A stretch of 46,582 nt of DNA from an uncultured Nitrospira sp. (GTDB lineage Bacteria; Nitrospirota; Nitrospiria; Nitrospirales; Nitrospiraceae). Under the pieces are notes generated by a model. That model had not been told where the DNA came from and did no database searches. It saw only the letters and a program-made list of their open reading frames with translations. Shown piece by piece: positions 2,290 to 15,472 of the stretch (its first letter is position 1; each line of letters begins with the position of its first letter). Location: assembly GCA_902500755.1 (NCBI GenBank), contig CABVRV010000023.1, positions 1 to 46,582 on the forward strand. Direction: 5' to 3'. The position numbers and the translations under genes were made by a program.

Positions 2290-3183
2290 ATGTCTACTCC
2301 GGTAGATTCCTCTTCTTCTGTCACGCCAGGAATACCCTGGTCCGCACTTGCGCGGTTGATCCGCCTGCAGAATCAAACGGGCACCTACTTACTGCTACTC
2401 CCCACGCTGTGGGCCCTGATACTGGCGGCTCGCGGCGTTCCACCACTTCATCTGCTTGCCATATTTCTTGGTGGATCGTTCTTGATGAGGAGCGCTGGAG
2501 TAATCATGAACGATTTAGCAGATCAAAGATTCGATCGGCAAGTCACCAGGACGAAAACTCGGCCCTTGGCCTCAGGTGAGTTATCCCGACGCCAAGCCGT
2601 GATACTACTCAGTGCATTGCTGACATTAGCGGCGTGCCTCCTGCTTCTGCTTCCTCCCATCGTGACCGGGCTCGCTCCAATCGCGGTCTTGCTTGCAGCC
2701 CTCTACCCATACTCTAAACGGTGGATTCATATCCCACAGGCCATGCTTGGCATTGCCTTCGGCTGGGGAACCGTCATGGCCTGGGCAGCGGTACAAGGAA
2801 AGTTGGACGCACAGGTTTGGTGCCTCTTTGGAGCGACAGCCGCCTGGGCCGTCGCCTACGATACGATTTACGCGGTCCAGGATCAAGACGATGATCGACA
2901 CATCGGAGTCAAGTCCGCTGCCCTATACTTTGGGCGGTTCATACACCGAGGGGTGGGCATGGCATTTGGTGTTATGGTAGCGTTTCTGACCGCCGTAGGG
3001 TGGCTTGCTCAGTTAGGATGGCCCTATTACATCGCGCTCCTGGGTGTGGTCGCGTTCTTCATGTTCCAAGTCTATCAGCTACGTAAACCGATCACACCGG
3101 TTCAGGCATTCGATATGTTCCGCGCGCATGTATGGGTCGGGACCACTCTACTTATTGGACTTCTTGGAGGCTTGCTGATTTAA
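2290..3183 (+). CDS. ubiA: UbiA-family aromatic prenyltransferase (4-hydroxybenzoate polyprenyltransferase type)
   Basis: 297 aa, a normal length for UbiA, with about eight hydrophobic helices. It is an integral membrane enzyme that attaches a polyprenyl chain to an aromatic acid in quinone synthesis. The first Asp-rich motif is NDLADQRFDRQ followed by RTKTRPLASGE. The second is YDTIYAVQDQDDDRHIGVKS, both being the Mg/diphosphate sites. The second motif looks like 4-hydroxybenzoate transferases rather than MqnP or MenA. The stop codon overlaps the convergent cytochrome c stop by 4 nt. The gene is monocistronic by context, so the substrate cannot be settled from its neighbours. Confidence 0.85.
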   Translation: MSTPVDSSSSVTPGIPWSALARLIRLQNQTGTYLLLLPTLWALILAARGVPPLHLLAIFLGGSFLMRSAGVIMNDLADQRFDRQVTRTKTRPLASGELSRRQAVILLSALLTLAACLLLLLPPIVTGLAPIAVLLAALYPYSKRWIHIPQAMLGIAFGWGTVMAWAAVQGKLDAQVWCLFGATAAWAVAYDTIYAVQDQDDDRHIGVKSAALYFGRFIHRGVGMAFGVMVAFLTAVGWLAQLGWPYYIALLGVVAFFMFQVYQLRKPITPVQAFDMFRAHVWVGTTLLIGLLGGLLI

Positions 3184-4205
3184 GGGTTCTCAACAGGCTT
3201 CTCTTCAACTGGCTCCGTTTTCGGTGCCCGCAAGGTGGCCACGTACATCGTCACGGCCTTTGCGTCTGCATCATTCAATCCTAATGCCGGCATGCGCGTG
3301 GCTGAATCCATGGCCTGTGGATTCTTCAGCCAGCGGTAGATCCAGGTGGCGTTCAACCGAAATCCAGCTCGATCTAAGGCAGGACCAATCTTGCCACCTT
3401 CGTCGGCAAGACTATGGCAGCCGTTGCAACCGTATTTATTCTCGTACAGTCGTTTGCCGCGCTCAATCAATGCGGCGGTTTCTGCAGGTTTGACCGTTAA
3501 ATCCGGCCTTGGGATACTGACTCCTCTTCCCGGTCTGGTCGAGAAGTTATTCAGGGCAACCTGAGCCGCATCCAGCTCTTTCTTGGCTTGACCCATGGCC
3601 TCCTGTTCGGCAGCATAGGCGGATTCATCCACATCCACATCTTTATTCAGTTCCTCACTTTTCCGCTCTGCTTCGTCACTGGCCTTCTTTTCCGCCGCTT
3701 CATAGGCCTGTTTGGCTTGTTCGAACTTCGTTTGTGCGGCTTTCAGCCCTTCATCAAGGGATGTTTTGCGCGCCTCCACATTGAATTCCATCTTCATGCC
3801 GTGGAGCGTGCGCACATGGCCGACGATCGCCCAGATTTCATCCTCTGAAAGGGTATATTTGAACGTCGGCATCGTCGGAACCGCGAAGTCATCGTCTCCG
3901 ATCTCATCGCCGCCTTCTTCACTGGTGTCCAGCATCTCACGTGAAATAGTAGCGAAGAGTTCTTGGTCCGTGAACGTTCCCATCTCAGACTTATTGGACA
4001 AGTCTTTCGGCTTTGGATCAGGCATAGCCGGCCAGTTGAACCCTTGATTTTGCTTACCGCTCTCACCGTGACAATCGCTGCAGTAGTGCGTATAGAGTTC
4101 GTGACCACGCTTCTCCTGCTCACTCGCGCAACCTCCGGTGAGCGCTGCTACTACCCCTATCGCGCCAACCATCAATCCGATGAGACCCAGCCTTGCCGCC
4201 TTCAT
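3180..4205 (-). CDS. Dihaem c-type cytochrome, lipoprotein, with central coiled coil
   Basis: 341 aa. The start at 4205 (MKAARLG) gives a signal peptide ending in lipobox LTGGC (Cys26), and it begins 2 nt after the upstream stop. The first haem site CSDCH (42-46) sits in a cytochrome c domain that reaches ~125. A charged, Ala/Lys/Glu-rich coiled coil (~145-225) links to a second domain with CNGCH (260-264) and a likely Met ligand in the RMPALG segment. This is the last gene of the respiratory operon, facing the periplasm. The two domains on a rod suggest an electron shuttle reaching between partners. That role is inferred. Confidence 0.88.
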   Translation of the reverse strand: MKAARLGLIGLMVGAIGVVAALTGGCASEQEKRGHELYTHYCSDCHGESGKQNQGFNWPAMPDPKPKDLSNKSEMGTFTDQELFATISREMLDTSEEGGDEIGDDDFAVPTMPTFKYTLSEDEIWAIVGHVRTLHGMKMEFNVEARKTSLDEGLKAAQTKFEQAKQAYEAAEKKASDEAERKSEELNKDVDVDESAYAAEQEAMGQAKKELDAAQVALNNFSTRPGRGVSIPRPDLTVKPAETAALIERGKRLYENKYGCNGCHSLADEGGKIGPALDRAGFRLNATWIYRWLKNPQAMDSATRMPALGLNDADAKAVTMYVATLRAPKTEPVEEKPVENP

Positions 4206-4207
4206 GC

Positions 4208-5035
4208 TCACTGCCCTTTCTTGAGTTTTCGGATCAGGACAAATTGAAATCCTAAGGCCACTACCGCGGCTATCGCTGCGTACATGTAGCTGGAATAATC
4301 TGGCGGGGCATCGGCTCGGAAATACCACCAGGAGGAAACGGCTTTTTGAGACCCTTTTTCCACCAACTCTCCCACGGCGTCTTTTCGTCCGTCCCAGACC
4401 GCAAAAGCGATACTGATGAATTCTCCCGGGATGATTTGAACATCCTCTTCAGGATGATCAGTCGATAAGGTGCGGGAAAAGACTATTTTCCAGCCACCGT
4501 TTGCGTAGGCTCCCTTTGCCTTCACATCTTGATGCGTTTGAGGCTTCAATGTCCCGAAGCCTTTGGCGGTCATATCGACGGCCTTGTCGTCTTTATGTTT
4601 CCAAAACCAGATATTGACCGGGCCACCTTCAACCTGGAGCATTGGCTGCCCGTGAGCAAAGTGCGCCTTTTTGTCTCCTACCATAAACTCGAATGCCGCC
4701 GCGTCGTCTAGATCCTCGCTGGGATCCTTGTATTCGAGAAGAAAAGCAACCTGATTGCCGTCGTGTAATGCTCGGACAGATACGTCCTGGACCGTCACCT
4801 CTTGAATACGGTTCGGCCAATGAACTTGTGGCGACATGGGAAACGTCGCCGGCATTGCGCTGCTCCAGATCGCGGCATTGGGATCATCGACGGGCAACCC
4901 ACCGGTGACAATCGTAGCCTTTACCGCTACGCTTTCCTGCGCAAAGCTGAGGGATGCCTCTGCGATAGTCATCGCTGCGATTGCGACTACCGCGCCCCGC
5001 AGAACACGCTTCATCACGTGATTCACCCGTTTCAT
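4208..5035 (-). CDS. NxrC-like haem b protein (ethylbenzene dehydrogenase gamma-subunit family) with C-terminal membrane anchor
   Basis: 275 aa from the ATG at 5035, preceded by GAGG. A signal peptide (ending near SFAQ) leads to a beta-rich domain matching the haem b-binding gamma subunits of type II DMSO-reductase-family enzymes (EbdC, NxrC, ClrC): early VQDVSVRALHDGNQVAFLLE, then NIWFWKHK and a late ISIAFAVWDG. A single transmembrane helix (~245-268) ends in basic residues. Soluble gamma subunits lack such an anchor. No molybdopterin alpha or Fe-S beta subunit lies nearby, so it probably works with the surrounding cytochromes rather than with a DMSO-reductase-type catalytic core. Family assignment is confident. 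The haem ligands were not checked by alignment. Confidence 0.78.
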   Translation of the reverse strand: MKRVNHVMKRVLRGAVVAIAAMTIAEASLSFAQESVAVKATIVTGGLPVDDPNAAIWSSAMPATFPMSPQVHWPNRIQEVTVQDVSVRALHDGNQVAFLLEYKDPSEDLDDAAAFEFMVGDKKAHFAHGQPMLQVEGGPVNIWFWKHKDDKAVDMTAKGFGTLKPQTHQDVKAKGAYANGGWKIVFSRTLSTDHPEEDVQIIPGEFISIAFAVWDGRKDAVGELVEKGSQKAVSSWWYFRADAPPDYSSYMYAAIAAVVALGFQFVLIRKLKKGQ

Positions 5036-5091
5036 GCTGGCCTCACTCTCCGTACGCAACTAGACCTGTCCACGCCATTCTTCTGTTCCCA

Positions 5092-5808
5092 TTACTCCCA
5101 CGTCCGTGGGGATTGGTGCGCTCCATCGTATTCCCCCATGATAATCTTCCAAATCCATTCGTCCGGCAATTCCAATTCCCAACGGGGCATGGCAGACTTC
5201 CACGGCGCACCTTCGATCGGAAGACCGACGCCGCCTTTTTTGATGCGCCAGAACAGATAGCTTTCCTGCAGCATCGCAATCGTCGTGGGATCGGCAAAAT
5301 TGGCGGGTGGAGGATTGTAGCCTCGTGCAGCAGGCCCTTTGCCATCAAAATTTCCACCGTGACAAGGGGAACAAAAGGCCGCATAAAACCCTTTCCCCTG
5401 CATAATATTCTCCGGAGTCTTGGGGACAGGGTTTGACAACCCCGTGTACTCTCCTGGCGGTGCAGGATGGATCGTCCTGCTCTCCGCCGGTGGAGCATCG
5501 CTCGATGCGGTGCTGCCGTAGGTTTGCCATCCTATCAGTAGAGGAAACAGAACAAGGATTCCATAGCGAAGCGCCTGCAACCCTCCGATATTCTCTCCGG
5601 TCAGGAACCGCTGCATCGGCCCCCAAAAGGCCTCCTTCGATTCTCCGCTCAACGTTTCAAAGATCACGATACCGGCTGCCGTCAGCAGGAGATAGAGAAA
5701 TATCAGGCTGGAGGGAAGTGGCGCTGAGCCTGGGATATACGGCAGCACAAACTTCAGGAACAAATACATGGCTATCATGAGTATGATCGGCTTACCTAAC
5801 GCGCCCAT
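5092..5808 (-). CDS. Membrane-bound monohaem cytochrome c
   Basis: 238 aa from the ATG at 5808, which has a strong AGGGGGG ribosome site overlapping the upstream stop. Two or three N-terminal hydrophobic helices (residues ~5-25, 33-55 and 80-98) anchor a C-terminal cytochrome c domain with one CSPCHG haem site and a downstream KSAMPRW segment that may supply the Met ligand. It is co-transcribed with the preceding membrane cytochrome and probably receives or passes electrons on the periplasmic face of the same complex. Confidence 0.87.
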   Translation of the reverse strand: MGALGKPIILMIAMYLFLKFVLPYIPGSAPLPSSLIFLYLLLTAAGIVIFETLSGESKEAFWGPMQRFLTGENIGGLQALRYGILVLFPLLIGWQTYGSTASSDAPPAESRTIHPAPPGEYTGLSNPVPKTPENIMQGKGFYAAFCSPCHGGNFDGKGPAARGYNPPPANFADPTTIAMLQESYLFWRIKKGGVGLPIEGAPWKSAMPRWELELPDEWIWKIIMGEYDGAHQSPRTWE

Positions 5809-5818
5809 ACGTTCCCCC

Positions 5819-6442
5819 CTAGTGCGCTTGTGCAATAGCCAATGGAGCAGATTTAGCCGTTTTTACCGGGGCTGGCGGTGCCTGACCCGGTATTTCGAGC
5901 TCCGACGTGCCGACAGAGATCGGCTCACCGCTCATTTGTTGAAGAAATGCGATGACGGCCAAGATTTCATTCTTCGAAAGCCCGATCGGATCCTTGTCGA
6001 TTGCGGGCATCGTTGCCGGATATTCCTTCGGCACACCCCCATGGCGGTAATCCTGATACACGAACGCCTGAGGATCCGTCAGGCTTTCATACAGGAAATC
6101 CTTGCTCAGTTTCGCCCCAATTCCCTTTAAATCCGGACAACGGGCGGATTCGCTTGGACCGATGGAATGACACAATGCGCATTGCCCTTTGCTGAAGAAG
6201 ACAGTTTGCCCGATGGCGGCGATGTCCGTCGGGGTCTTGATACTGGCAATGTCGATCTTTTCCTCTGCCGGAGGGAGAGACGCCAACTGCGGTACGGCGA
6301 GGGACATGAGCGAGAACAGCCCCAATACGATGGCCACAAATCCCGTGACCCGGAGAAAGACAGCCTTGATGAAAAGAAGGATCAGAATCCCGATCCCGAC
6401 GATTGACAGTGCGATTAATTGTAGTTGTGCGACTTCACTCAT
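5819..6442 (-). CDS. Membrane-bound monohaem cytochrome c
   Basis: 207 aa. Two N-terminal hydrophobic helices (~8-30 and 32-55) precede a periplasmic cytochrome c domain with CALCHS and a later ATMPAIDKD segment carrying a likely Met ligand. The tail is Pro/Ala-rich. The ATG at 6442 is preceded by GGAGAG. It lies 55 nt after the bd-like gene, and its stop overlaps the next gene's ribosome site. The c-domain resembles those fused to or associated with cbb3 and bc complexes. The exact partner is unknown. Confidence 0.87.
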   Translation of the reverse strand: MSEVAQLQLIALSIVGIGILILLFIKAVFLRVTGFVAIVLGLFSLMSLAVPQLASLPPAEEKIDIASIKTPTDIAAIGQTVFFSKGQCALCHSIGPSESARCPDLKGIGAKLSKDFLYESLTDPQAFVYQDYRHGGVPKEYPATMPAIDKDPIGLSKNEILAVIAFLQQMSGEPISVGTSELEIPGQAPPAPVKTAKSAPLAIAQAH

Positions 6443-6497
6443 AGCTCTCCAACCCGTAAGTGTGTCGTTCTGTGTCTTCTTGAAGCATGACGCTCAC

Positions 6498-8357
6498 CTA
6501 TTGCTGCTGACGCTCTTCTGGAGCCCCTCCGGCCATCGCCGGAATACCGTGCGGCAGGTCTCCCTTTCCTGCTCCAGAAGCGGTCTTGTACTTATCGCCC
6601 ATGGTGGCAACCCAGAAGATAAACGCGACGAGAATGCAGAAGAAAAACGTGCAAAAGGCCATAATCAGTGACGCGCTGCCGAGAGCCGGCGAATAAGCAT
6701 ACGGCGACGTATCACGCATCACGCCATACACATGCCAATGGACGCGGGAAGAAGATCGCGCATACCCCATGAGCGTCATGAGGAGGATCACCATGACCGC
6801 ATTGAGGACGAGGGCATACCCGGCGCGCGGAGGCATGCTGCCCCAGACCATCTCCGTCGTCGTCTTGGCACTCTTGAGCAACAGCGCCGTCAACGGCGTG
6901 ATCGTGAGAATAACGAAGCCGACAATCGCCACCTGAGATGTGGAGAAATAATTAATGCGAACGATCGCCGGTACAAAATATCCCCACACTCCAAGGACAA
7001 TGACGGCAAGACTCGCCACCACCAACACCGCACCCATCACTGCTTTTCCAAACTTCGCCCACCCCGCTGTATCCTGTTTCCCCGCCCGCCAATACATCAC
7101 GAAGCTCATGAAGGTAATAAGAATCATGAGGTTCGAGACCGTCATTTTGGCCGACATGACGCCTAGGACTCCTAGTAATGGATGGTGAGCACCTCCCATT
7201 TTCTGAGCTTCTTCAATGCTGGCCACAAGTGAGTGCGGGGTCATCCACACGGCAAGGCACAGCAACAGGCTGATTAACATCATCAACATGGCTCGACGAT
7301 ACTTCGCTTCCGATCCGGGAATGCGATAGGTAATCCCCAGCCAGAAGTAATAGTTCGATCCAAGGAACAAGACCCCGATCAGCATGGCCTGGATGATGAA
7401 GAGCCAGGAGAGAAATCCTCCCATCAGTGTAATGCCCATTTGCTGGTTGTACTGATAGATTTCCCGCATGAGCCAATATCCGGCAAACGGCAGGGCCAAC
7501 AGACCGAACACGCCGATAAAGTTCCCGACATATCCCATCCAATCGTAATGCTCCCGATCTTCCTTGCTTTTGACGGATAGATACCGAACTCCGGCATAGG
7601 CTCCACAGATGTACCCGCCAAGCACGACGTTGGCGATGAGCCGATGGATGTTGATCGGCCACCACGTCGGATTCCACGTCGCAGCCCAAGCCCGCTCAAA
7701 GGCAGTCCCTTCTGAAAGCACAACCGGGCTGGATTGGAACGTGGCCCAGGCGTTGGGCACGATCATAATGAACAAAGCGAAGAAATTCAGAAGAAACCCC
7801 AGAAAGACATGCAACGTTTTTTTCCTACCATCCTGCATGGCATCCCACCCATACCAATAGAGATAGAGGGTCACCGTTTCGAGCAGGAACAACAGGCAGT
7901 AGAGTAAAAACGACGGAAAGAAGACATCCGTCAAATAATTCATTAGCTTTGGATAGAACGCCACCAATAGAAACAAGAGAATACCGCCGAACAAGGCGGT
8001 CGTGGCATAGGCTGATGTCAGAAGCTTGGTAAACTCCTTGGCGAGCTTGTCATAACGTTTTTCCCCTCCTCGCCAAGCGATGACTTCACAGAGCCACGCG
8101 AAGATCGGCACCCCTAAAACAAACCCAGCGAGCAAGAGATGCAGTTGTGCAACAATCCAAACCAGGTTCCGGCTGCCGATATAGGGAATATCGCGATATT
8201 CAGTCGGACCGGCCGCCGGGCCCTCTGCTGCGATGCCGATCGAAGGGAGCGCTAGCCAGGCCGCCGTCAACAAGAGACCTGCAACCCATCCGCCGTGGCT
8301 TTTGACGGTTCGGAAAGCTGGTTGAATCGTTTCCGTCTCTTGTCGTATGACACTCAC
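6498..8357 (-). CDS. Cytochrome bd-like oxidase subunit I (CydA-like), paralogue 1
   Basis: About 619 aa from the second of two tandem GTG codons (8357), 5 nt after GAGGTG. A signal-like N-terminus leads to a polytopic protein. QLHLLLAGF carries His73, at the position of the CydA haem b595 ligand, and INIHRLIANV carries His238, like the b558 His. The Q-loop GRQPW motif of canonical CydA is not visible, and no cydB lies anywhere in the window. Nitrospira genomes are known to encode such divergent bd-like proteins as proposed terminal oxidases. Here it sits between cytochrome c genes and the bc complex, so cytochrome c rather than quinol could be the electron donor (inference). Confidence 0.8.
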   Translation of the reverse strand: MSVIRQETETIQPAFRTVKSHGGWVAGLLLTAAWLALPSIGIAAEGPAAGPTEYRDIPYIGSRNLVWIVAQLHLLLAGFVLGVPIFAWLCEVIAWRGGEKRYDKLAKEFTKLLTSAYATTALFGGILLFLLVAFYPKLMNYLTDVFFPSFLLYCLLFLLETVTLYLYWYGWDAMQDGRKKTLHVFLGFLLNFFALFIMIVPNAWATFQSSPVVLSEGTAFERAWAATWNPTWWPINIHRLIANVVLGGYICGAYAGVRYLSVKSKEDREHYDWMGYVGNFIGVFGLLALPFAGYWLMREIYQYNQQMGITLMGGFLSWLFIIQAMLIGVLFLGSNYYFWLGITYRIPGSEAKYRRAMLMMLISLLLCLAVWMTPHSLVASIEEAQKMGGAHHPLLGVLGVMSAKMTVSNLMILITFMSFVMYWRAGKQDTAGWAKFGKAVMGAVLVVASLAVIVLGVWGYFVPAIVRINYFSTSQVAIVGFVILTITPLTALLLKSAKTTTEMVWGSMPPRAGYALVLNAVMVILLMTLMGYARSSSRVHWHVYGVMRDTSPYAYSPALGSASLIMAFCTFFFCILVAFIFWVATMGDKYKTASGAGKGDLPHGIPAMAGGAPEERQQQ

Positions 8358-8373
8358 CACATCACCTCGTAAG

Positions 8374-9375
8374 TTACGGTTTCGTCTTGGCCGTTGAATC
8401 TGCGGTCGTTCCGCCTTCGGTCTTCCCCTTGCCTTTTGCTTTTTGACCCTTTGTGGCGGCTTTTTGCTGCTCCATGGCTTCAATTTGTGCCGCAAGCGTC
8501 GCAACACGCTGGGCACTGCTGCTCAACGACTCGACCGGTTTAAATACCGGCTCGACCGGTACGTCAGGTTTTTTACAGCATTCATGCGGATGGGGAGTCG
8601 TCACTGGAAGTATCGACCAAAACATCAGAGAGAACACGACACCGACACCAGCCAACGAGGTTAAGAGCAATCCCTGATCGGTCGGTACACGCATGAGGTC
8701 CCACCGAGTAATGAGTCCTTGATAACTTTCTGAAGTCGGCCGGCAATCTTCCGATATGCGCCGAATGATTTGCCCGAGAATGGATACTCCAATCAAGGAT
8801 AACGCGATCAACACGGCTGAAGAGATCGAGCCCCAGATTGTCAATTCAAGGCCGATTCGTTCCGCCACCGGAAGACCCGTATCCGTAATATGTCTTAAAC
8901 TCTCCATTTCAGCCATCGAATGAGACGCGGTAATCGCGTTATCCGTGATGAAACTTACGATACCCCAGAGGACTGGGAGGAAGAAGGCTCCCACGAGAGC
9001 CGCTCTCCACCAAATGGCAAGTCCAAGTCCATCGGGCGGCTCTTTTCGTAGCCGTTCAAGGAAAAACGTACGACCAACCAGTCCGAGCGCCCAAATATCG
9101 ACTGGAATCGAGAGCCAGAACAGGATCTCGAGACCGATCCCTTCACCAAAGTGCGCGCCAAACACGGCCATGAGGATCGGAATCGCAAAGACGGTGACCG
9201 GACTGATCAGCAGCATAACGACGGCAAGCCCAAATCTCCCCTCAAAATGCACCAATCCCATCGTCAAGAGAAGAACGGCAAAGACCGATTTCACAACCAT
9301 ACCGGTCCAACAGGCGGACCAGAGGATGCTGAAACCTATCTTCGTCGGAGACATCGATTCGCGTTCTTCAGCCAT
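8374..9375 (-). CDS. Polytopic membrane protein of the respiratory operon, unknown function
   Basis: 333 aa, ATG at 9375. I do not recognise the family. It has about six hydrophobic segments (residues ~10-40, 45-70, 78-100, 125-150, 180-205 and 240-260). A periplasmic or cytoplasmic stretch contains HPHECCKK, followed by a Lys/Ala/Gly-rich tail with a short helical segment (AAQIEAMEQQKAA). It has no CxxCH. The HPHECCKK cluster could bind a metal or haem, but this is speculation. It lies 18 nt after cytochrome b and 16 nt before the bd-like gene, so it is very likely a structural or assembly subunit of that complex. Confidence 0.7.
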   Translation of the reverse strand: MAEERESMSPTKIGFSILWSACWTGMVVKSVFAVLLLTMGLVHFEGRFGLAVVMLLISPVTVFAIPILMAVFGAHFGEGIGLEILFWLSIPVDIWALGLVGRTFFLERLRKEPPDGLGLAIWWRAALVGAFFLPVLWGIVSFITDNAITASHSMAEMESLRHITDTGLPVAERIGLELTIWGSISSAVLIALSLIGVSILGQIIRRISEDCRPTSESYQGLITRWDLMRVPTDQGLLLTSLAGVGVVFSLMFWSILPVTTPHPHECCKKPDVPVEPVFKPVESLSSSAQRVATLAAQIEAMEQQKAATKGQKAKGKGKTEGGTTADSTAKTKP

Positions 9376-9393
9376 AACGAATGGGTACCAGCA

Positions 9394-10536
9394 TTAATCC
9401 AGGAACTCTCGGTTAATCACTGAGGCAACCGTGAACAACACAATGACCACCATGATGGCGATCCAGCTGATCAAGGCAATCGGTCGTTTAAAAATATTCC
9501 GCTCCGGATCCTTATCGAAGAACGGAAGGGCCACGAGCAATGCCATGAAGACGACCGGCAACGCAACCGCGCCAAGAAATTGCCCGAACTCGCCTGCAAA
9601 AATTTTCAACCGGAGAAGTTGGAAATAAAAAAGGAAATACCATTCCGGTTCGGGATGGTAGTCCCCAGGGTCAGGTGCGGCTTGGTCCAGTAGAACGACC
9701 GGTTCCCACAGGGCTAATGCGCAGATTCCGGCAAAGACGAAGGCCATTCCGACCATATCCTTCCAAATTTGCCGGGGGAAGAAGTAGTCGGTCTTAGCCT
9801 TGATCTCTTCCTTCGTCCCACTAAATGGTCCAGCAGGAGCCGCCACCCGAAATAAAAACAAATGGAGCCCGGCTAGCGCCATGAGGGCGGCCGGAAGAAT
9901 CATCACATGAAGGACGAAAAAGCGACTCAACGTCATCTGACCCGGAGTCGGCCCCCCTTTGAGAAACCTGGCGATAAAGTCACCGACAATAGGCGTTTTA
10001 TCCAAGATTTCAACGCCCACCGTCGTCGCCCAGAATGCCCGTTGATCCCAAGGTAAAAGGTACCCTGTAAAGCCAAAGGTGATCACAATCCCAAACAAAG
10101 CTAAACCGACAAGCCAGAGCAATTCTCTTGGTTTTTTATATGCCCCCCAGAGAAAGACTTGAGACATATGCGCCACGACACATACAACCATCGCGCTGGA
10201 TCCCCAGAAGTGGTAGCCCAGCAGAAACCAACCATAATCGACGTCATGGATAATATATTGAGTGCTGTCATACGCATGGTCGGTGGTGGGGACATAGTAA
10301 AACATCAGCAGAGTACCCGTCACCGCCTGCATCGCAAAGATGAACAAGAGGATTGAGCCGAAGACATAGGCCCAACGAGAGCCGCCTGGAATCGGTTCAT
10401 TGAGCATCTTGGCCTGCATTTCCTTGAGTCCGACCCGTTCGTCAAGGAAGGCAACGAGCTTTTCGATCGTGCTAGGCTGATGATCAGGGAGTGCTGCAGG
10501 GGACGAGTGTTTACTATCCATATCGCTAGGTTTCAA
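9394..10536 (-). CDS. Cytochrome b of a bc-type complex (b6-like haem spacing, fused C-terminal domain)
   Basis: 380 aa if the TTG at 10536 is used, or 375 aa from the ATG at 10521. Numbering here is from the ATG. The haem b ligand pairs are His104/His118 (13 residues between) and His205/His220 (14 between), the latter spacing being typical of b6 proteins. FGFTGYLLPWDQ, a PTPGQMTLSRF segment and the quinol-site PEWY (292-295) are all present. The subunit IV-like C-terminal part is fused to the N-terminal part. The TTG start overlaps the Rieske TGA as TTGA, which suggests translational coupling. The protein oxidises or reduces quinone in complex III. Confidence 0.93.
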   Translation of the reverse strand: MKPSDMDSKHSSPAALPDHQPSTIEKLVAFLDERVGLKEMQAKMLNEPIPGGSRWAYVFGSILLFIFAMQAVTGTLLMFYYVPTTDHAYDSTQYIIHDVDYGWFLLGYHFWGSSAMVVCVVAHMSQVFLWGAYKKPRELLWLVGLALFGIVITFGFTGYLLPWDQRAFWATTVGVEILDKTPIVGDFIARFLKGGPTPGQMTLSRFFVLHVMILPAALMALAGLHLFLFRVAAPAGPFSGTKEEIKAKTDYFFPRQIWKDMVGMAFVFAGICALALWEPVVLLDQAAPDPGDYHPEPEWYFLFYFQLLRLKIFAGEFGQFLGAVALPVVFMALLVALPFFDKDPERNIFKRPIALISWIAIMVVIVLFTVASVINREFLD

Positions 10537-11468
10537 ACTATCCGCACTTGTGCTTTCGTACCAGCCTTGAACTCCATGTCAATGACTTCCACCTCACCGC
10601 TCGCGGAAACCCGCACGGGCAAGGCATCAAGGCCGCGCGGGGCAGGGCCGTCCAACACGTTTCCTGCCGCATCATAGATACTCAAATGGCACGGACAAAG
10701 GAACACCGGGCCGAGGGCTTTATGGTTGCGCCACTTGTACGCGCATCCGAGATGCGGGCATTTACCGGAAAATGCGATGTACGGCATCTCTTTCTTATTG
10801 GTCCAGATGACTGTCCCCTTGGCGTCATGGAATTCTTCATCTTTTCCCTGATAGACTTTCTCGAGAAGCTCGGGAGTCGCGCGCACAACCCAGACGTTCT
10901 TCTCAACTTCGTATTCGGGCATGTACGCTTCCTTCATTTTTTTCTTGTACTCGAACTGTACCCCAACGTCCTCTTTCTTGATCTTGCTTACGTTTCCCAC
11001 GTTCAGCCATTGGTTGTCAAAATCCGCGTACATGGGCTTCATGAGGTAACGAAGAATGGGATAGGCTATGGGCAGTCCGATCAAGAACCCGATGACATGG
11101 GTGAAATTCATGAAAAACGTGCGGCGCTTGACGCTCTTTTCGAGGTCAGGCAGAGGTACCAACACCTCCCCTGGCGTGACATGGATATTGTCTTCGAGAT
11201 GCGAGATCTCCACTTCATGCGTGGTGACGTAGTCTTCCCGCTTAAACGGAGGCAACGCCAAAATATCCCGCGAGGGCGTACCTAGCTGCACAAGATCTTC
11301 GGTAACAGCCTGCACGTGGCCCATCGCAACCTGCCGCTCGCCGTTCCCGTTCATCGACACCACAATGTGACTGATCTCGTGGGAGAGCGGATCAAGCACA
11401 ACTTTCGAGACTTCGCCGATGTCGAGGTCCGTGCACCGGACTTTAGATTTCAGCTTTGGCTGCAGCAT
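10533..11468 (-). CDS. Rieske iron-sulfur protein with N-terminal PRC-barrel-like domain
   Basis: 311 aa. The C-terminal Rieske domain has CPHLGC (237-242) and CPCHLS (258-263). C237, H239, C258 and H261 bind the 2Fe-2S cluster, and C242-C260 form the usual disulfide. A single transmembrane helix lies at ~120-142. Unusually, ~60 residues at the N-terminus (LDIGEVSKVVLDPLSHEI onward) look like a PRC-barrel, placing an extra domain on the other side of the membrane. CPCHLS replaces the common CPCHGS. The start overlaps the cytochrome c stop as TAATG. It transfers electrons from quinol to cytochrome c in the bc complex. Confidence 0.92.
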   Translation of the reverse strand: MLQPKLKSKVRCTDLDIGEVSKVVLDPLSHEISHIVVSMNGNGERQVAMGHVQAVTEDLVQLGTPSRDILALPPFKREDYVTTHEVEISHLEDNIHVTPGEVLVPLPDLEKSVKRRTFFMNFTHVIGFLIGLPIAYPILRYLMKPMYADFDNQWLNVGNVSKIKKEDVGVQFEYKKKMKEAYMPEYEVEKNVWVVRATPELLEKVYQGKDEEFHDAKGTVIWTNKKEMPYIAFSGKCPHLGCAYKWRNHKALGPVFLCPCHLSIYDAAGNVLDGPAPRGLDALPVRVSASGEVEVIDMEFKAGTKAQVRIV

Positions 11469-12277
11469 TATTTCTTCTTGATAGGCTTCGGGGTATTCAC
11501 TGAGGTATTCTTGAAGGTACCCAACCAGGTGGCGAGCGCCAGCATTTCTTTGGGATCCATGAGATCCTTAAACTTGTCCGGCATCACGCCCTTCTGCCAT
11601 TCCTTATCATACCCCTCAGCCATGAAACTCTTGGGGTCTACAATTTTCTGTTGAATTTCTTCGACCGTCAGCAGCGTGCCGATGTTATCCAGTTCGGGGC
11701 CCCGTTTCTTTCCACCTTCACCCCTTAGCTTGTGGCAGTTGTAACATTCCTGTAATTGCCACTGCTCCTCCCCCACCTTCATCACATCGCCTGCGGCTCC
11801 GCCACCCCCGCCGGCTCCTGCAGGAGGCTTATCCCCAGCCGGTGGTGTCGTAGTGGCCGTTGCAACTTGACTCCCACCCAAACCCTTAAGCCGTTCTTCT
11901 AGAGCTTTTACCTGCTCATCAAGAGCCTTTGCACGAGCGATCAACTCGTCCGCCTTTCCTTGCTGCGAGGCGGCTCGCTGCTTCTCCAGTAGTTTGGAAA
12001 TTTTTTCCCGCTCATCTTCCGGATCAAACTGAGGCAACAGAGACGCACCGGCGATGCAGACGGTCACGATGAAAATCCAAAATGCGACGACCGCCAGGAA
12101 CGACTTCCCACCGCTCATCGTCGTAAGCGGTTTGGCATCGAGCAACATAAAGACCAGGGCACCGATCATCGCAAAGATTGCCCACAGCAGCTGAAAGTCA
12201 GACGGCACTTCTTGCGAATGAGCAAATGTCACGACTGCCCCACCAACCAACAACGCAATGCCAAGTTTCTTAAACAC
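11468..12277 (-). CDS. Membrane-anchored monohaem cytochrome c with coiled-coil linker
   Basis: 269 aa from the GTG at 12277, with AAGGTGG upstream. Three hydrophobic segments (residues ~5-20, 28-46 and 60-82) are followed by a coiled coil (~90-135), a Gly/Pro/Ala-rich linker and a cytochrome c domain with one CYNCHK site and a KGVMPDKF segment carrying the likely Met. It lies directly upstream of the Rieske and cytochrome b genes, where a cytochrome c1-equivalent would be expected. I infer it fills the c1 role of this bc complex. Confidence 0.88.
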   Translation of the reverse strand: MFKKLGIALLVGGAVVTFAHSQEVPSDFQLLWAIFAMIGALVFMLLDAKPLTTMSGGKSFLAVVAFWIFIVTVCIAGASLLPQFDPEDEREKISKLLEKQRAASQQGKADELIARAKALDEQVKALEERLKGLGGSQVATATTTPPAGDKPPAGAGGGGGAAGDVMKVGEEQWQLQECYNCHKLRGEGGKKRGPELDNIGTLLTVEEIQQKIVDPKSFMAEGYDKEWQKGVMPDKFKDLMDPKEMLALATWLGTFKNTSVNTPKPIKKK

Positions 12278-12329
12278 GATCCACCTTCTGAATACTGATA
12301 AAGCTTACCAACGTTGCGATGACCCCTAC

Positions 12330-14033
12330 TTACTTCACTCCGACAGGAACTGGGTTCATCTCCGGTTCACGCACTTTCGAAACGGATGGGCGGAGCGCCA
12401 CCAGCGCAGCCAGCGTGACAATGACGAGAAAGCTGACGGTAATCCCGGTAATCCACCATGCAGAATAGGAAAGCGTCGGCGTAAATGACTCCACCGTGAA
12501 GTCCGACACCAGGCTGTAGGCATGAAAGTATTTTTTGAGCAGTGACCTGACGGCTCCCATCAGCCCCATGATCCACGTGGAGATGAACGCCAAGAAAATC
12601 AGGACGAATTGCGCGACAAAATCAATTTTCCCCCACAGAATCGTCCCCTGCTTGATGGTTCTGTTGTAGAGAACATAATTGACTACGGTCACAAACACCA
12701 ACACGATAATCGCGGAGAGCTTCGCCGGCATCGACGCGAGATAATCCCATCCTTCCGGGAGCTTCAGCTCATCAGGCATATCACTGCCAGTAGCCACGAA
12801 ACCACTGGGAGTGAGCCACACCGCATCGCTGATGAGCATCACGATAAAGCCGATCTTGATGACAGTCCGTGCAGAAACGGTCACGGAAACCAATCGCCCC
12901 AATAGGAATGGTGACAAGACCAGGGGCAGCAAGAAAGCCAGTGACATCGGATCAGGAATCCAGTAGGTGTTCATCACCCACATCGTCACTGGAAGCACGG
13001 CAACCAGGACAATGGGAGCCAGGATCGTCATCCGCACCTTTTCAGCTCCCTCGATTCGCTTCACGCTGAGCCAACTATAGTAGTTGATCGCCAAGAATAG
13101 CAGCCCGATCATCATTCCCTGCACCTCGAAAAACATCGAGAGCTGATCGGCCATCATGTAAGGGCAAAACGAAAAATCGTAGTCACACATTTCGTACGCC
13201 AGCAACAGCCCCGTGAACGGCTGCAAGAGCGACCCGCCCACCGCAATCCAAATCGCGACGAAGCCCATCCAATCGTAATAGGCTCGCTCTTCTTGCGTCT
13301 TCGAGCCCATGTACATGTAGGCGGCGATCATACCGGCAATAAAGCCACCGAACGCGACATTGCCGTCGATCCTATGCAGGCTGAGAGGGAACCAGCTTTG
13401 ATTCGCAACCTTATCCCACAAGGTCGCCGCCGCGAGGAAATCCTGGGGCGAGATCCCCTCGGCCTTTGGCGGAGTGTTCATGAACGACGTGGGGCCATTG
13501 ATTACAAAGAGAATGAGCAAACAGACGAGATTCAAGACTATGCCCAGCGCGATGTGTCGCCCCTTCTTTTCACCTTTCCAGACGTCCCAGGTATAGAGAT
13601 AGGCATACATGAGGATTGTCTCTACGATGAACAGCGCCGGATAGAGGATCGCGAAGACGACGTAGAATTGATTGATGAACCAGGTTGTGAATTGAGGATA
13701 GGCTGCCAGGAGGATAAAAATGAATAAGCCTCCGGTCACAGCCGTCATACTAAAGAGGATAACCGTGACTTTGGTGATCTCTTTCGCCATGCGATCGTAG
13801 CGTGGGTCTTGCTTGCGATAGCCCAGCCACTCAGATATGACAACGAAGATCGGGGCTCCCAGAATGAAGGCGGCGAATAGAATATGAAGTTGCGCAACGA
13901 CCCAGACGGCCGTCCGATTGCCTGTATATGGAAAATCCACCGAGGACGCTCCAAGCTCCTGGGCGTAGACAGTGGGCGCAACACACACGCAAAGCACGAC
14001 AAGAGCCAGGAGACCATGCCACATTTTTTTCAC
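12330..14033 (-). CDS. Cytochrome bd-like oxidase subunit I (CydA-like), paralogue 2
   Basis: 567 aa from the GTG at 14033, which follows GAGGT. A signal peptide (cleavage near VYAQ) leads to a polytopic protein. AQLHILFAAFILGAPI carries His50 (haem b595-like) and FPLSLHRIDGNV carries His220 (b558-like). It is clearly paralogous to the protein at 6498-8357 along its whole length, with both copies in one operon. As in that protein, no GRQPW Q-loop motif is visible and no CydB partner is present. A Cys pair (MCDYDFSFCP) is peculiar to this copy. It is a possible oxygen-reducing or electron-transfer subunit. Confidence 0.8.
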   Translation of the reverse strand: MKKMWHGLLALVVLCVCVAPTVYAQELGASSVDFPYTGNRTAVWVVAQLHILFAAFILGAPIFVVISEWLGYRKQDPRYDRMAKEITKVTVILFSMTAVTGGLFIFILLAAYPQFTTWFINQFYVVFAILYPALFIVETILMYAYLYTWDVWKGEKKGRHIALGIVLNLVCLLILFVINGPTSFMNTPPKAEGISPQDFLAAATLWDKVANQSWFPLSLHRIDGNVAFGGFIAGMIAAYMYMGSKTQEERAYYDWMGFVAIWIAVGGSLLQPFTGLLLAYEMCDYDFSFCPYMMADQLSMFFEVQGMMIGLLFLAINYYSWLSVKRIEGAEKVRMTILAPIVLVAVLPVTMWVMNTYWIPDPMSLAFLLPLVLSPFLLGRLVSVTVSARTVIKIGFIVMLISDAVWLTPSGFVATGSDMPDELKLPEGWDYLASMPAKLSAIIVLVFVTVVNYVLYNRTIKQGTILWGKIDFVAQFVLIFLAFISTWIMGLMGAVRSLLKKYFHAYSLVSDFTVESFTPTLSYSAWWITGITVSFLVIVTLAALVALRPSVSKVREPEMNPVPVGVK

Positions 14034-14153
14034 GATACCTCAATGCCCCCTTGCTTGCTGAACCTCGCCAAGATTCTCAATTCGACAGGCTCACAACTCT
14101 GACGTTACATGCCTCTCGAATTGATGCAGATGGCCGCACGACCTCACTTCCGG

Positions 14154-14642
14154 TCATTTGCCACCCGCATCCATCCACTGGTTCTTTTCTTCATTCCATA
14201 TTTTCCCCGACAGTCCAAAATTCCGCTCATACAGCACGAGCTTCCATACGTCGTCCTCTGAGAGTTTGCTCTTCCAACCCTTCATCTTGGTATTGGGAAC
14301 CCCCTCAGATATGCGCCAAAACCACACGGAATCGGAATACAACTTCATGCGCTCAGGATTCCTAAAATCTGTGGCCCCTGCTTTTACAGGTTTCCCATCA
14401 CTCCCATGACAGCTGGCGCATTTTACATCTGGATTTGCCTCACCGAGGTAGAGCTTTCGGCCCTCTTCCAGTTTCCGGGCATCTTCCCACCAGTCTGGCG
14501 GCATATGCTTGTCGGCATATTCAGCCGGTGCCGGAGGTGGTGGAACGATTGGCCCCTCATCACCACCTTGAGTGCACCCTGCGAGCAGCCCGATGCTCAT
14601 GGCCGCCAATACGGGCCTTACCCATCTCCACTCTAACGACAT
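14154..14642 (-). CDS. Small monohaem cytochrome c lipoprotein
   Basis: 162 aa, the first gene of the respiratory operon. The signal peptide has lipobox LLAGC (Cys ~22), so the protein should be tethered on the periplasmic face. A Pro-rich linker leads to a cytochrome c domain with CASCHG and a NTKMKGWKS segment where the Met ligand is expected. A 120-nt gap separates it from the bd-like gene, which is the longest gap in the operon but holds no obvious terminator. No clear Shine-Dalgarno sequence precedes the ATG at 14642. Confidence 0.87.
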   Translation of the reverse strand: MSLEWRWVRPVLAAMSIGLLAGCTQGGDEGPIVPPPPAPAEYADKHMPPDWWEDARKLEEGRKLYLGEANPDVKCASCHGSDGKPVKAGATDFRNPERMKLYSDSVWFWRISEGVPNTKMKGWKSKLSEDDVWKLVLYERNFGLSGKIWNEEKNQWMDAGGK

Positions 14643-14854: not shown

Positions 14855-15472
14855 TTATGATTTACGCTTACCTTGCGATTTCCCTTTGCCCCGCTCCTGC
14901 CTCCGCTGAGAACGGACAAGCTTCATACCGATAATGGTACCAGCGGCCAGGACCATCGCGCCACTTCCCCACCACAGCCAGACAGGAGGGCTACTCGCAT
15001 CACAACCAGTTCCAAAGTTAACTTGGATCTTTCGCTCACTTTCAAGGTCCTTCGAATCGAAGGTAACTTTCAGATGTTGCTGTTCCCCCCTGACTTCTAC
15101 AAGAAGGGGATCTCCGAGATTGTCGTTGTGCAGATGAAAGATTGCCTTGTAGTACCCATCTCCATCCGTTCTCACAACCTGCCCATACGAAATTTTCGTG
15201 TCTTTAGCGAGTACGTCTACGTTCGATATCGCACTCCCGTCCGCTCCGCACACATACCCTTCAACCATGAAACGATGGTCCGCCTCATGAGTGGTGCGAG
15301 CAACTGGAGGAAACACGGCATTTGTCGCGAGACAGCAAGCTAGGACGCCTAACCCTATTCGACGTCGTCCATTACGCTGCAAACTTGATTGCCGACTCGT
15401 CGCTTGCTCCTTCGAAGACGCACACGCTCCATCACAGCGAGCGCATTCTGTTTGGGCAGGGGTTTCTAGCAC
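14855..15472 (-). CDS. Exported protein with carboxypeptidase-regulatory-like beta domain and C-terminal membrane helix, unknown function
   Basis: Up to 205 aa. The start is uncertain: the GTG at 15472 has no ribosome site, and a promoter-like TTGACA/TAGAAA pair (15491-15463) would start RNA near 15456, inside this frame. A downstream TTG near 15378 would place a signal-like sequence (RRRIGLGVLACCLATNAVF) at the N-terminus. The mature part has a transthyretin-like segment (VEGYVCGADGSAISNVDVLAKD, then DGDGYYKAIFHL), one transmembrane helix (PVWLWWGSGAMVLAAG) and a strongly basic tail. Its place between hpnH and the respiratory operon does not reveal a role. Confidence 0.55.
   Translation of the reverse strand: MLETPAQTECARCDGACASSKEQATSRQSSLQRNGRRRIGLGVLACCLATNAVFPPVARTTHEADHRFMVEGYVCGADGSAISNVDVLAKDTKISYGQVVRTDGDGYYKAIFHLHNDNLGDPLLVEVRGEQQHLKVTFDSKDLESERKIQVNFGTGCDASSPPVWLWWGSGAMVLAAGTIIGMKLVRSQRRQERGKGKSQGKRKS

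Follow-up and report, generated by a model that had tools for sequence, protein, structure and literature searches.

Gene content of the cluster

Contig CABVRV010000023.1 of an uncultured Nitrospira sp. (assembly GCA_902500755.1), whose whole 46,582 nucleotides we refer to as the window, carries eleven open reading frames (ORFs) on the minus strand, running from 14642 down to 3180, that encode respiratory proteins. The genome to which it belongs (G000) comprises 3.83 Mb in 203 contigs. We number the cluster genes g1 to g11 along the minus strand and use g0 for an extra upstream gene (Table 1). Pfam searches recovered five cytochromes c, an EB_dh protein, two Cyt_bd_oxida_I (CydA-like) proteins, a Cytochrome_B and a Rieske protein, with g6 falling into no family; none of the cluster proteins matched a CydB, COX1 or molybdopterin family. 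As developed below, the operon probably encodes a cytochrome c-fed terminal oxidase of the bd fold together with a b6-type bc complex.

A preliminary description of this DNA had listed eleven same-strand genes of this content, six CxxCH motifs in five cytochromes c and the lack of CydB, haem-copper and molybdopterin subunits, and the coordinates, families and motif counts obtained here agree with it throughout. The number of CxxCH motifs per protein does not vary among the orthologues read, which together with the window amount to 66 to 77 sequences per gene. The close packing that it described stands as regards the first gap (120 nucleotides, between g1 and g2); however, the two long overlaps, g6/g7 and g10/g11, are artefacts of upstream start codons, the likely starts by eye lying at about 8357-8360 for g7 and about 4205 for g11.

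Table 1. Genes of the cluster, with their coordinates in the window
Gene	Coordinates	Strand	Product and features	Longest frame
g0	14855..15472	-	twelfth gene, conserved; CarboxypepD_reg similarity weak, under the Pfam cut-off; by eye, signal-like and transmembrane-like ends	
g1	14154..14642	-	mono-haem cytochrome c	
g2	12330..14033	-	CydA-like, OR-N1 / bd-like_1 type; GRQPW absent; Ser in place of His at the TPH site	
g3	11468..12277	-	mono-haem cytochrome c, membrane-anchored	
g4	10533..11468	-	Rieske iron-sulfur protein; about 110 extra residues at the N-terminus	
g5	9394..10536	-	unsplit cytochrome b, b6 type (14 residues between helix-D His, PEWY)	
g6	8374..9375	-	membrane protein without family; about 6 transmembrane segments; TPHPHECC-like motif past the last one	
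g7	6498..8360	-	CydA-like, OR-N2 / bd-like_2 type; candidate catalytic oxidase subunit	ORF to 8516
g8	5819..6442	-	mono-haem cytochrome c, membrane-anchored; homologue fused to OR-N2 in G139	
g9	5092..5808	-	membrane mono-haem cytochrome c	ORF to 5835
g10	4208..5035	-	EB_dh / DMSO reductase type II gamma-like haem b protein, alt_NxrC_1 type; hydrophobic N- and C-terminal stretches	ORF to 5059
g11	3180..4205	-	di-haem cytochrome c	ORF to 4328

Conservation of the gene order

One scan of species genomes returned 252 confirmed stretches around g7, the best 80 of which (the named contigs) were compared. In 60 of them g1 to g11 are complete, in the same order and on the same strand, N. moscoviensis (L141) and N. 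defluvii (L120) being among these; the other 20 are contiguous slices cut by a contig end, and none of the 80 contradicts the gene order. Given these counts, the shared order is far beyond chance, and the eleven-gene cluster is a conserved Nitrospirales operon. The closest named match to g7 comes from a Nitrospira metagenome assembly (95%), while the N. defluvii orthologue (FP929003 877333-879324; possibly NIDE0901, a name that we guess from its position only) is 77% identical. In a wider search g7 was matched in 56 of 148 genomes of the phylum, paralogues included and with E-values of up to 1e-10. The upstream gene g0 is present in 63 of the 64 loci that extend at least 1000 nucleotides past g1, L059 being the exception, and a homologue of it lies directly before the Rieske gene in locus L042 of G139, a genome of the same class as the window and of another family.

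Both the gene arrangement and the hypothesis of a joint complex are already known. In N. moscoviensis, CIII_1, bd-like_1, bd-like_2, alt_nxrC_1 and cytochromes c occur together in a highly transcribed region, for which a supercomplex of complexes III and IV with a link to nitrite oxidoreductase (NXR) was proposed (Mundinger et al., 2019; PMC6606698). That region, with which we equate L141 by content, has the same kinds of genes, and L141 holds all eleven in the same order; as far as the accessible part of that paper goes, the species is the only difference. Since Mundinger et al. had already made the proposal for N. moscoviensis, the supercomplex idea is not new. The useful additions are a fusion of OR-N2 with cytochrome c, relatives in which no other oxidase was matched, and an unequal loss of a His residue between the two CydA-like proteins, all of which favour a cytochrome c-fed OR-N2 oxidase.

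Unequal conservation of the two CydA-like proteins

Although both g2 and g7 match the Cyt_bd_oxida_I profile, as expected from their earlier designation as full-length bd-like subunit I proteins, the match covers roughly the initial 240 of the profile's 418 positions, so that the likeness to CydA is restricted to the N-terminal half. The GRQPW motif, already reported as missing, is in neither sequence. We constructed a tree of 40 rows, 39 of which (one canonical CydA among them) came from the profile of the g7 alignment (A1), with a second canonical CydA added. In it one clade (100/100) unites g2 with its orthologues, and a separate one (100/99) unites g7 with its own and with the fusion proteins of G139. 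The two canonical CydA rows, both from G000, are split from the other 38 at 100/100, and the bd-like_3-type rows of the same genome lie outside the g2 and g7 clades. A number of rows have long branches, which the program warned may be joined falsely to the g2 clade, and the deep forks are unsure.

This combination of CydA homology outside the canonical clade, two CydA-like proteins without CydB, and no quinol motif is shared with the OR-N CydAA' oxidase, composed of OR-N1 and OR-N2, for which a cytochrome c donor has likewise been predicted (PMC12342949, PMC10839748). A difference lies in the OR-N1 of the window's lineage, which has Ser in place of the TPH-site His, a feature not mentioned in the accessible parts of these two papers.

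Residues were counted in tblastn alignments of 84 loci (L042, L043, L058, L059 and L062-L141), with rows not selected by motif; OR-N2 is present in all 84 and OR-N1 in 69. Positions are named H19-, H186- and M393-like in what we take to be E. coli-style numbering. In OR-N2, the H19-like position, the H186-like position and the TPH site are each His in 84/84 loci, as are both His positions of its C-terminal RVHWH motif, and the M393-like position is Met in 82/84 and Val in the two G139 copies. OR-N1 retains the H19-like His in 69/69 loci, the H186-like His in 68/69 (the last not being covered) and the second His of HWH in 69/69. At its TPH site, in contrast, His is found in 31/69 loci, while the remaining 38 have Ala, Asn, Gly or Ser. 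A separate OR-N1 tree comprised 67 rows, namely the window and 66 of 85 ORFs matched by g2; it excluded ORFs without an NRT[AG]VW start (many of them g7 matches on contigs ending before g2) and loci outside L058-L141. With His in 28 of these rows, at least two changes at the TPH site are needed, one of them on the branch to the window's group. The invariance of this His in OR-N2, set against its loss in more than half of the OR-N1 loci, therefore suggests that OR-N2 is the catalytic subunit and that OR-N1 is under weaker constraint.

Alignment with CydA, which the preliminary description had put forward for locating the haem ligands, succeeds in the N-terminal half, where the H19- and H186-like His are found, and fails in the C-terminal half. 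For the C-terminal segments, hhalign against four canonical CydA proteins (picked by the GRQPW motif) gave 0.2% for 10 OR-N2 rows, again 0.2% for these combined with 7 other bd-like rows, and 5.6% for 8 OR-N1 rows. Over the whole length, a global comparison assigned OR-N1 a probability of 97% against canonical CydA, convincing in the N-terminal half only, and reduced OR-N2 to one aligned column. By eye it is plausible that the TPH-site His of OR-N2 corresponds to the canonical b595 ligand, which we take to be E445 (WMTPH versus WMTAE), but hhalign does not support this. The two His of the RVHWH motif are possible metal or haem ligands. In sum, the pair shares with the canonical quinol oxidase CydAB an N-terminal half with H19- and H186-like His, and differs from it in having neither a CydB partner nor GRQPW, and in its C-terminal half.

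Cytochrome c as the likely electron donor

In G139, both copies of OR-N2 are followed in the same frame by a cytochrome c domain that is 46% identical to g8, giving ORFs of 836 (L042) and 784 (L043) residues. Because it is fused to an oxidase subunit there, a cytochrome c of the g8 type is the natural candidate donor. This fusion, together with the published expectation of a cytochrome c donor (PMC10839748, PMC12324825), makes it likely that the CydA-like proteins take electrons from cytochrome c rather than from quinol, as had been surmised from the operon. Our literature search met no such OR-N2-cytochrome c fusion, though Murali et al. (2021) may contain one. Directly before the fusion gene of L042 lie two 516-residue ORFs (5781-7330 and 7563-9110) that by eye resemble antiporters of the NuoL/NuoM type, possibly an ion-pumping module. 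In L134 (7104-10355), g6, g7 and g8 are read in a single open frame of 1083 residues, which is either a fusion or a frame error of the assembly; as the latter is possible, the join of g6 to g7 carries little weight.

The fusion bears on how the parts of the operon are held together. Stable binding of the bc complex, OR-N1, OR-N2, g6, g10 and the cytochromes c in one physical supercomplex, with electrons staying inside it, would account for the strict gene order and the OR-N2-g8 fusion, as well as for the single frame in L134, should that be real, and it is in line with the high expression in N. moscoviensis and the proposal of Mundinger et al. (PMC6606698). Yet the gene order fits co-regulation too, the fusion links just two of the parts, and related bd-like genes are found without g4-g6. 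We consider such an assembly conceivable and somewhat doubtful. It is improbable, in our estimate, that OR-N1 and OR-N2 are instead two separate oxidases, each a homodimer, that merely share an operon. The finding of OR-N2 without a recognised OR-N1 in G139 and the retention of the H19- and H186-like His in both proteins would suit this arrangement, but the two genes stand in the same operon in 60/60 complete contigs, and the fact that only OR-N1 has lost the TPH-site His suggests unequal roles within one enzyme. Genes resembling OR-N1 also occur in G012 and G054, of other families, at 46% and 54%.

Other oxidases in the window's genome and its relatives

Each of the two CydB genes of G000 adjoins its own canonical CydA. 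The separate cydB-like partner that, according to the preliminary description, would have told against its reading was thus not found for g2 or g7. Two further CydA-like genes lie beside genes resembling alternative complex III (ACIII). In this cluster (L061, G000:C31:8000-27000), ACIII-like genes recognized by eye (molybdenum cofactor/iron-sulfur, NrfD-like and penta-haem) accompany short CydA-like ORFs of 471 and 427 residues, resembling the published arrangement of ACIII plus OR-N5. Another cluster (L060, G000:C56:8000-23490) is of the bd-like_3/bd-like_4 type and includes a di-haem EB_dh protein as well as cytochromes c, matching the published account of N. moscoviensis. The sole, sub-threshold match to PF00115 (COX1) in G000 is an orphan membrane protein of 480 residues (L011, G000:C53:4873-5322), possibly a distant haem-copper relative. 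With the CydAB pairs, the ACIII-associated genes and this ORF present, G000 by itself does not decide which enzyme is the terminal oxidase.

Neither PF00115 nor PF02322 (CydB) was matched in G065 (Nitrospirales) or in G139, each listed as 99% complete; in these searches PF00115 was matched in 7 of the 12 genomes covered and PF02322 in 2 of 7. Their PF01654 matches are of OR-N type only, without a canonical CydA. With no match to COX1, CydB or canonical CydA, the OR-N-type proteins are thus the sole candidates for an oxygen reductase seen in these two genomes.

These observations have to be set against the idea that the CydA-like proteins are no oxidases, and instead serve NXR and the bc complex as partners in reverse electron transport, transferring electrons or reducing quinone. 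Such a role was raised in the 2013 genome paper on Nitrospina gracilis for a related bd-like protein in which the Q-loop is replaced by helices and quinol residues are missing (PMC3578206), and the related type is reported to be conserved in anammox bacteria (PMC6606698, PMC3578206). Moreover, G119 and G131 have bd-like proteins and no COX1 or CydB match. However, the published statements concern the bd-like_3 type, which falls outside the g2 and g7 clades in our tree; GRQPW is absent; and G065 and G139 have no match to another oxidase. We therefore judge a non-oxidase function unlikely for g2 and g7.

The bc complex and neighbouring genes

The assignment of g5 to the b6 type, also made earlier, is borne out by the spacing of the two helix-D His: 14 residues lie between them in the window, as in 75 of the 77 loci that have a g5 match, the other two not being covered. 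PEWY is found in 77/78 g5 sequences, and CPHLGC and CPCH in 72/73 sequences of the Rieske protein g4. The helix-D spacing, PEWY and a Rieske protein are common to cytochrome b6f and other b6-type bc complexes. The window departs from cytochrome b6f in that the b6 and subunit IV parts form a single polypeptide of 380 residues, in that no cytochrome f is recognized, and in having its own cytochromes c. In addition, the g5 sequences displayed have no Cys at what we take to be the place of haem c_n in cytochrome b6, a segment that reads FIFAMQAVTG in the window. The roughly 110 residues ahead of the transmembrane helix in g4 look PRC-barrel-like by eye, without a Pfam match.

In two Nitrospira species no quinones other than methyl-plastoquinones were detected, and in the published model complex III is reversed during nitrite oxidation (PMC12324825). 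Convergent with g11, and overlapping its end by 4 bases, a UbiA-type prenyltransferase gene (2290-3183, plus strand) is present in 66 of the 80 named contigs and could be part of a methyl-plastoquinone pathway. Beyond it, a gene on the minus strand (175-2376) has a caspase-domain (Peptidase_C14) match just under the Pfam cut-off.

The membrane protein g6 and the NxrC-like protein g10

Among the loci fetched, homologues of g6 occur in Nitrospirales loci only. Their TPHPH[ED]CC-like motif is well kept over 81 loci: the first His in 75, the second His in 79 and each Cys in 76. Scattered weak Pfam matches appear in at most 3 of 44 members and none in that of the window (best E 0.014); NCBIfam gave no match, and PDB sequences only E-values of 0.44 or worse. 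As a hidden CydB, g6 was rejected at a profile comparison probability of 0.8%.

With an EB_dh haem b domain and a hydrophobic stretch at either end, the putative signal peptide and C-terminal transmembrane segment, g10 has the features of an NxrC-like protein; its DMSO_red_II_gam match lies under the cut-off. It resembles alt_nxrC_1 of N. moscoviensis (NITMOv2_0740), which has one signal peptide, one transmembrane helix and 30.5 kDa (PMC6606698). G000 encodes four EB_dh proteins: besides g10, there is one on each of C113, C88 and C56, that of C56 being di-haem.

A probable cytochrome c-fed oxidase in the Nitrospira respiratory chain

Several observations weigh against a cytochrome c-fed oxidase formed by g2 and g7. 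To begin with, the M393-like Met is present in only 8/69 OR-N1 loci, and Val, Ile or Thr takes this position in other relatives; the C-terminal haem ligands could not be mapped at the low probabilities that hhalign gave; and no OR-N1 orthologue was found in G139, the best g2 match there (39%) being to the OR-N2 fusion. Fourteen loci outside Nitrospirales (L044-L057) with related bd-like genes show no homologue of g4, g5 or g6, many of their contigs being short. G000 itself also has two CydAB pairs. G119 and G131, although likewise without PF00115 and PF02322 matches, carry only other bd-like types and none of the g7 clade, so that a lack of further oxidases cannot be taken to show that an organism respires O2. 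In G000 no NXR alpha was identified, a PF00384 search giving six unchecked matches, and the link to NXR is for this reason taken from the literature. Finally, PMC10839748 states that neither the composition nor the function has been confirmed by experiment.

A cytochrome c-fed bd-fold oxidase encoded with a b6-type bc complex nevertheless remains our preferred reading, and on it the operon would constitute the main high-potential end of the Nitrospira respiratory chain. Electrons from nitrite oxidoreductase would enter via the haem b protein g10 and the cytochromes c; the membrane cytochromes c of the operon, g8 first, rather than quinol, would then feed the g2/g7 pair, a putative CydB-less oxygen reductase in which OR-N2 may be catalytic. 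The bc complex, acting on the same cytochromes, would run backwards, supplying reduced methyl-plastoquinone to CO2 fixation, or, given low-potential donors, forwards, both as in the published model. A bolder version, in which OR-N2 alone reduces O2 with electrons directly from g8, OR-N1 is degenerating towards a merely structural role like that of CydB, and both join the bc complex and g6 in a supercomplex that replaces the haem-copper oxidase, is speculative, and we think it rather unlikely in full.

Nitrospira, among which are comammox bacteria, are described as more widespread than any other nitrite oxidisers, and this operon is the place to seek their terminal oxidase. The fusion in G139, the relatives without another oxidase match and the unequal loss of His between OR-N1 and OR-N2 make a cytochrome c-fed bd oxidase with OR-N2 as its catalytic subunit a testable proposition.

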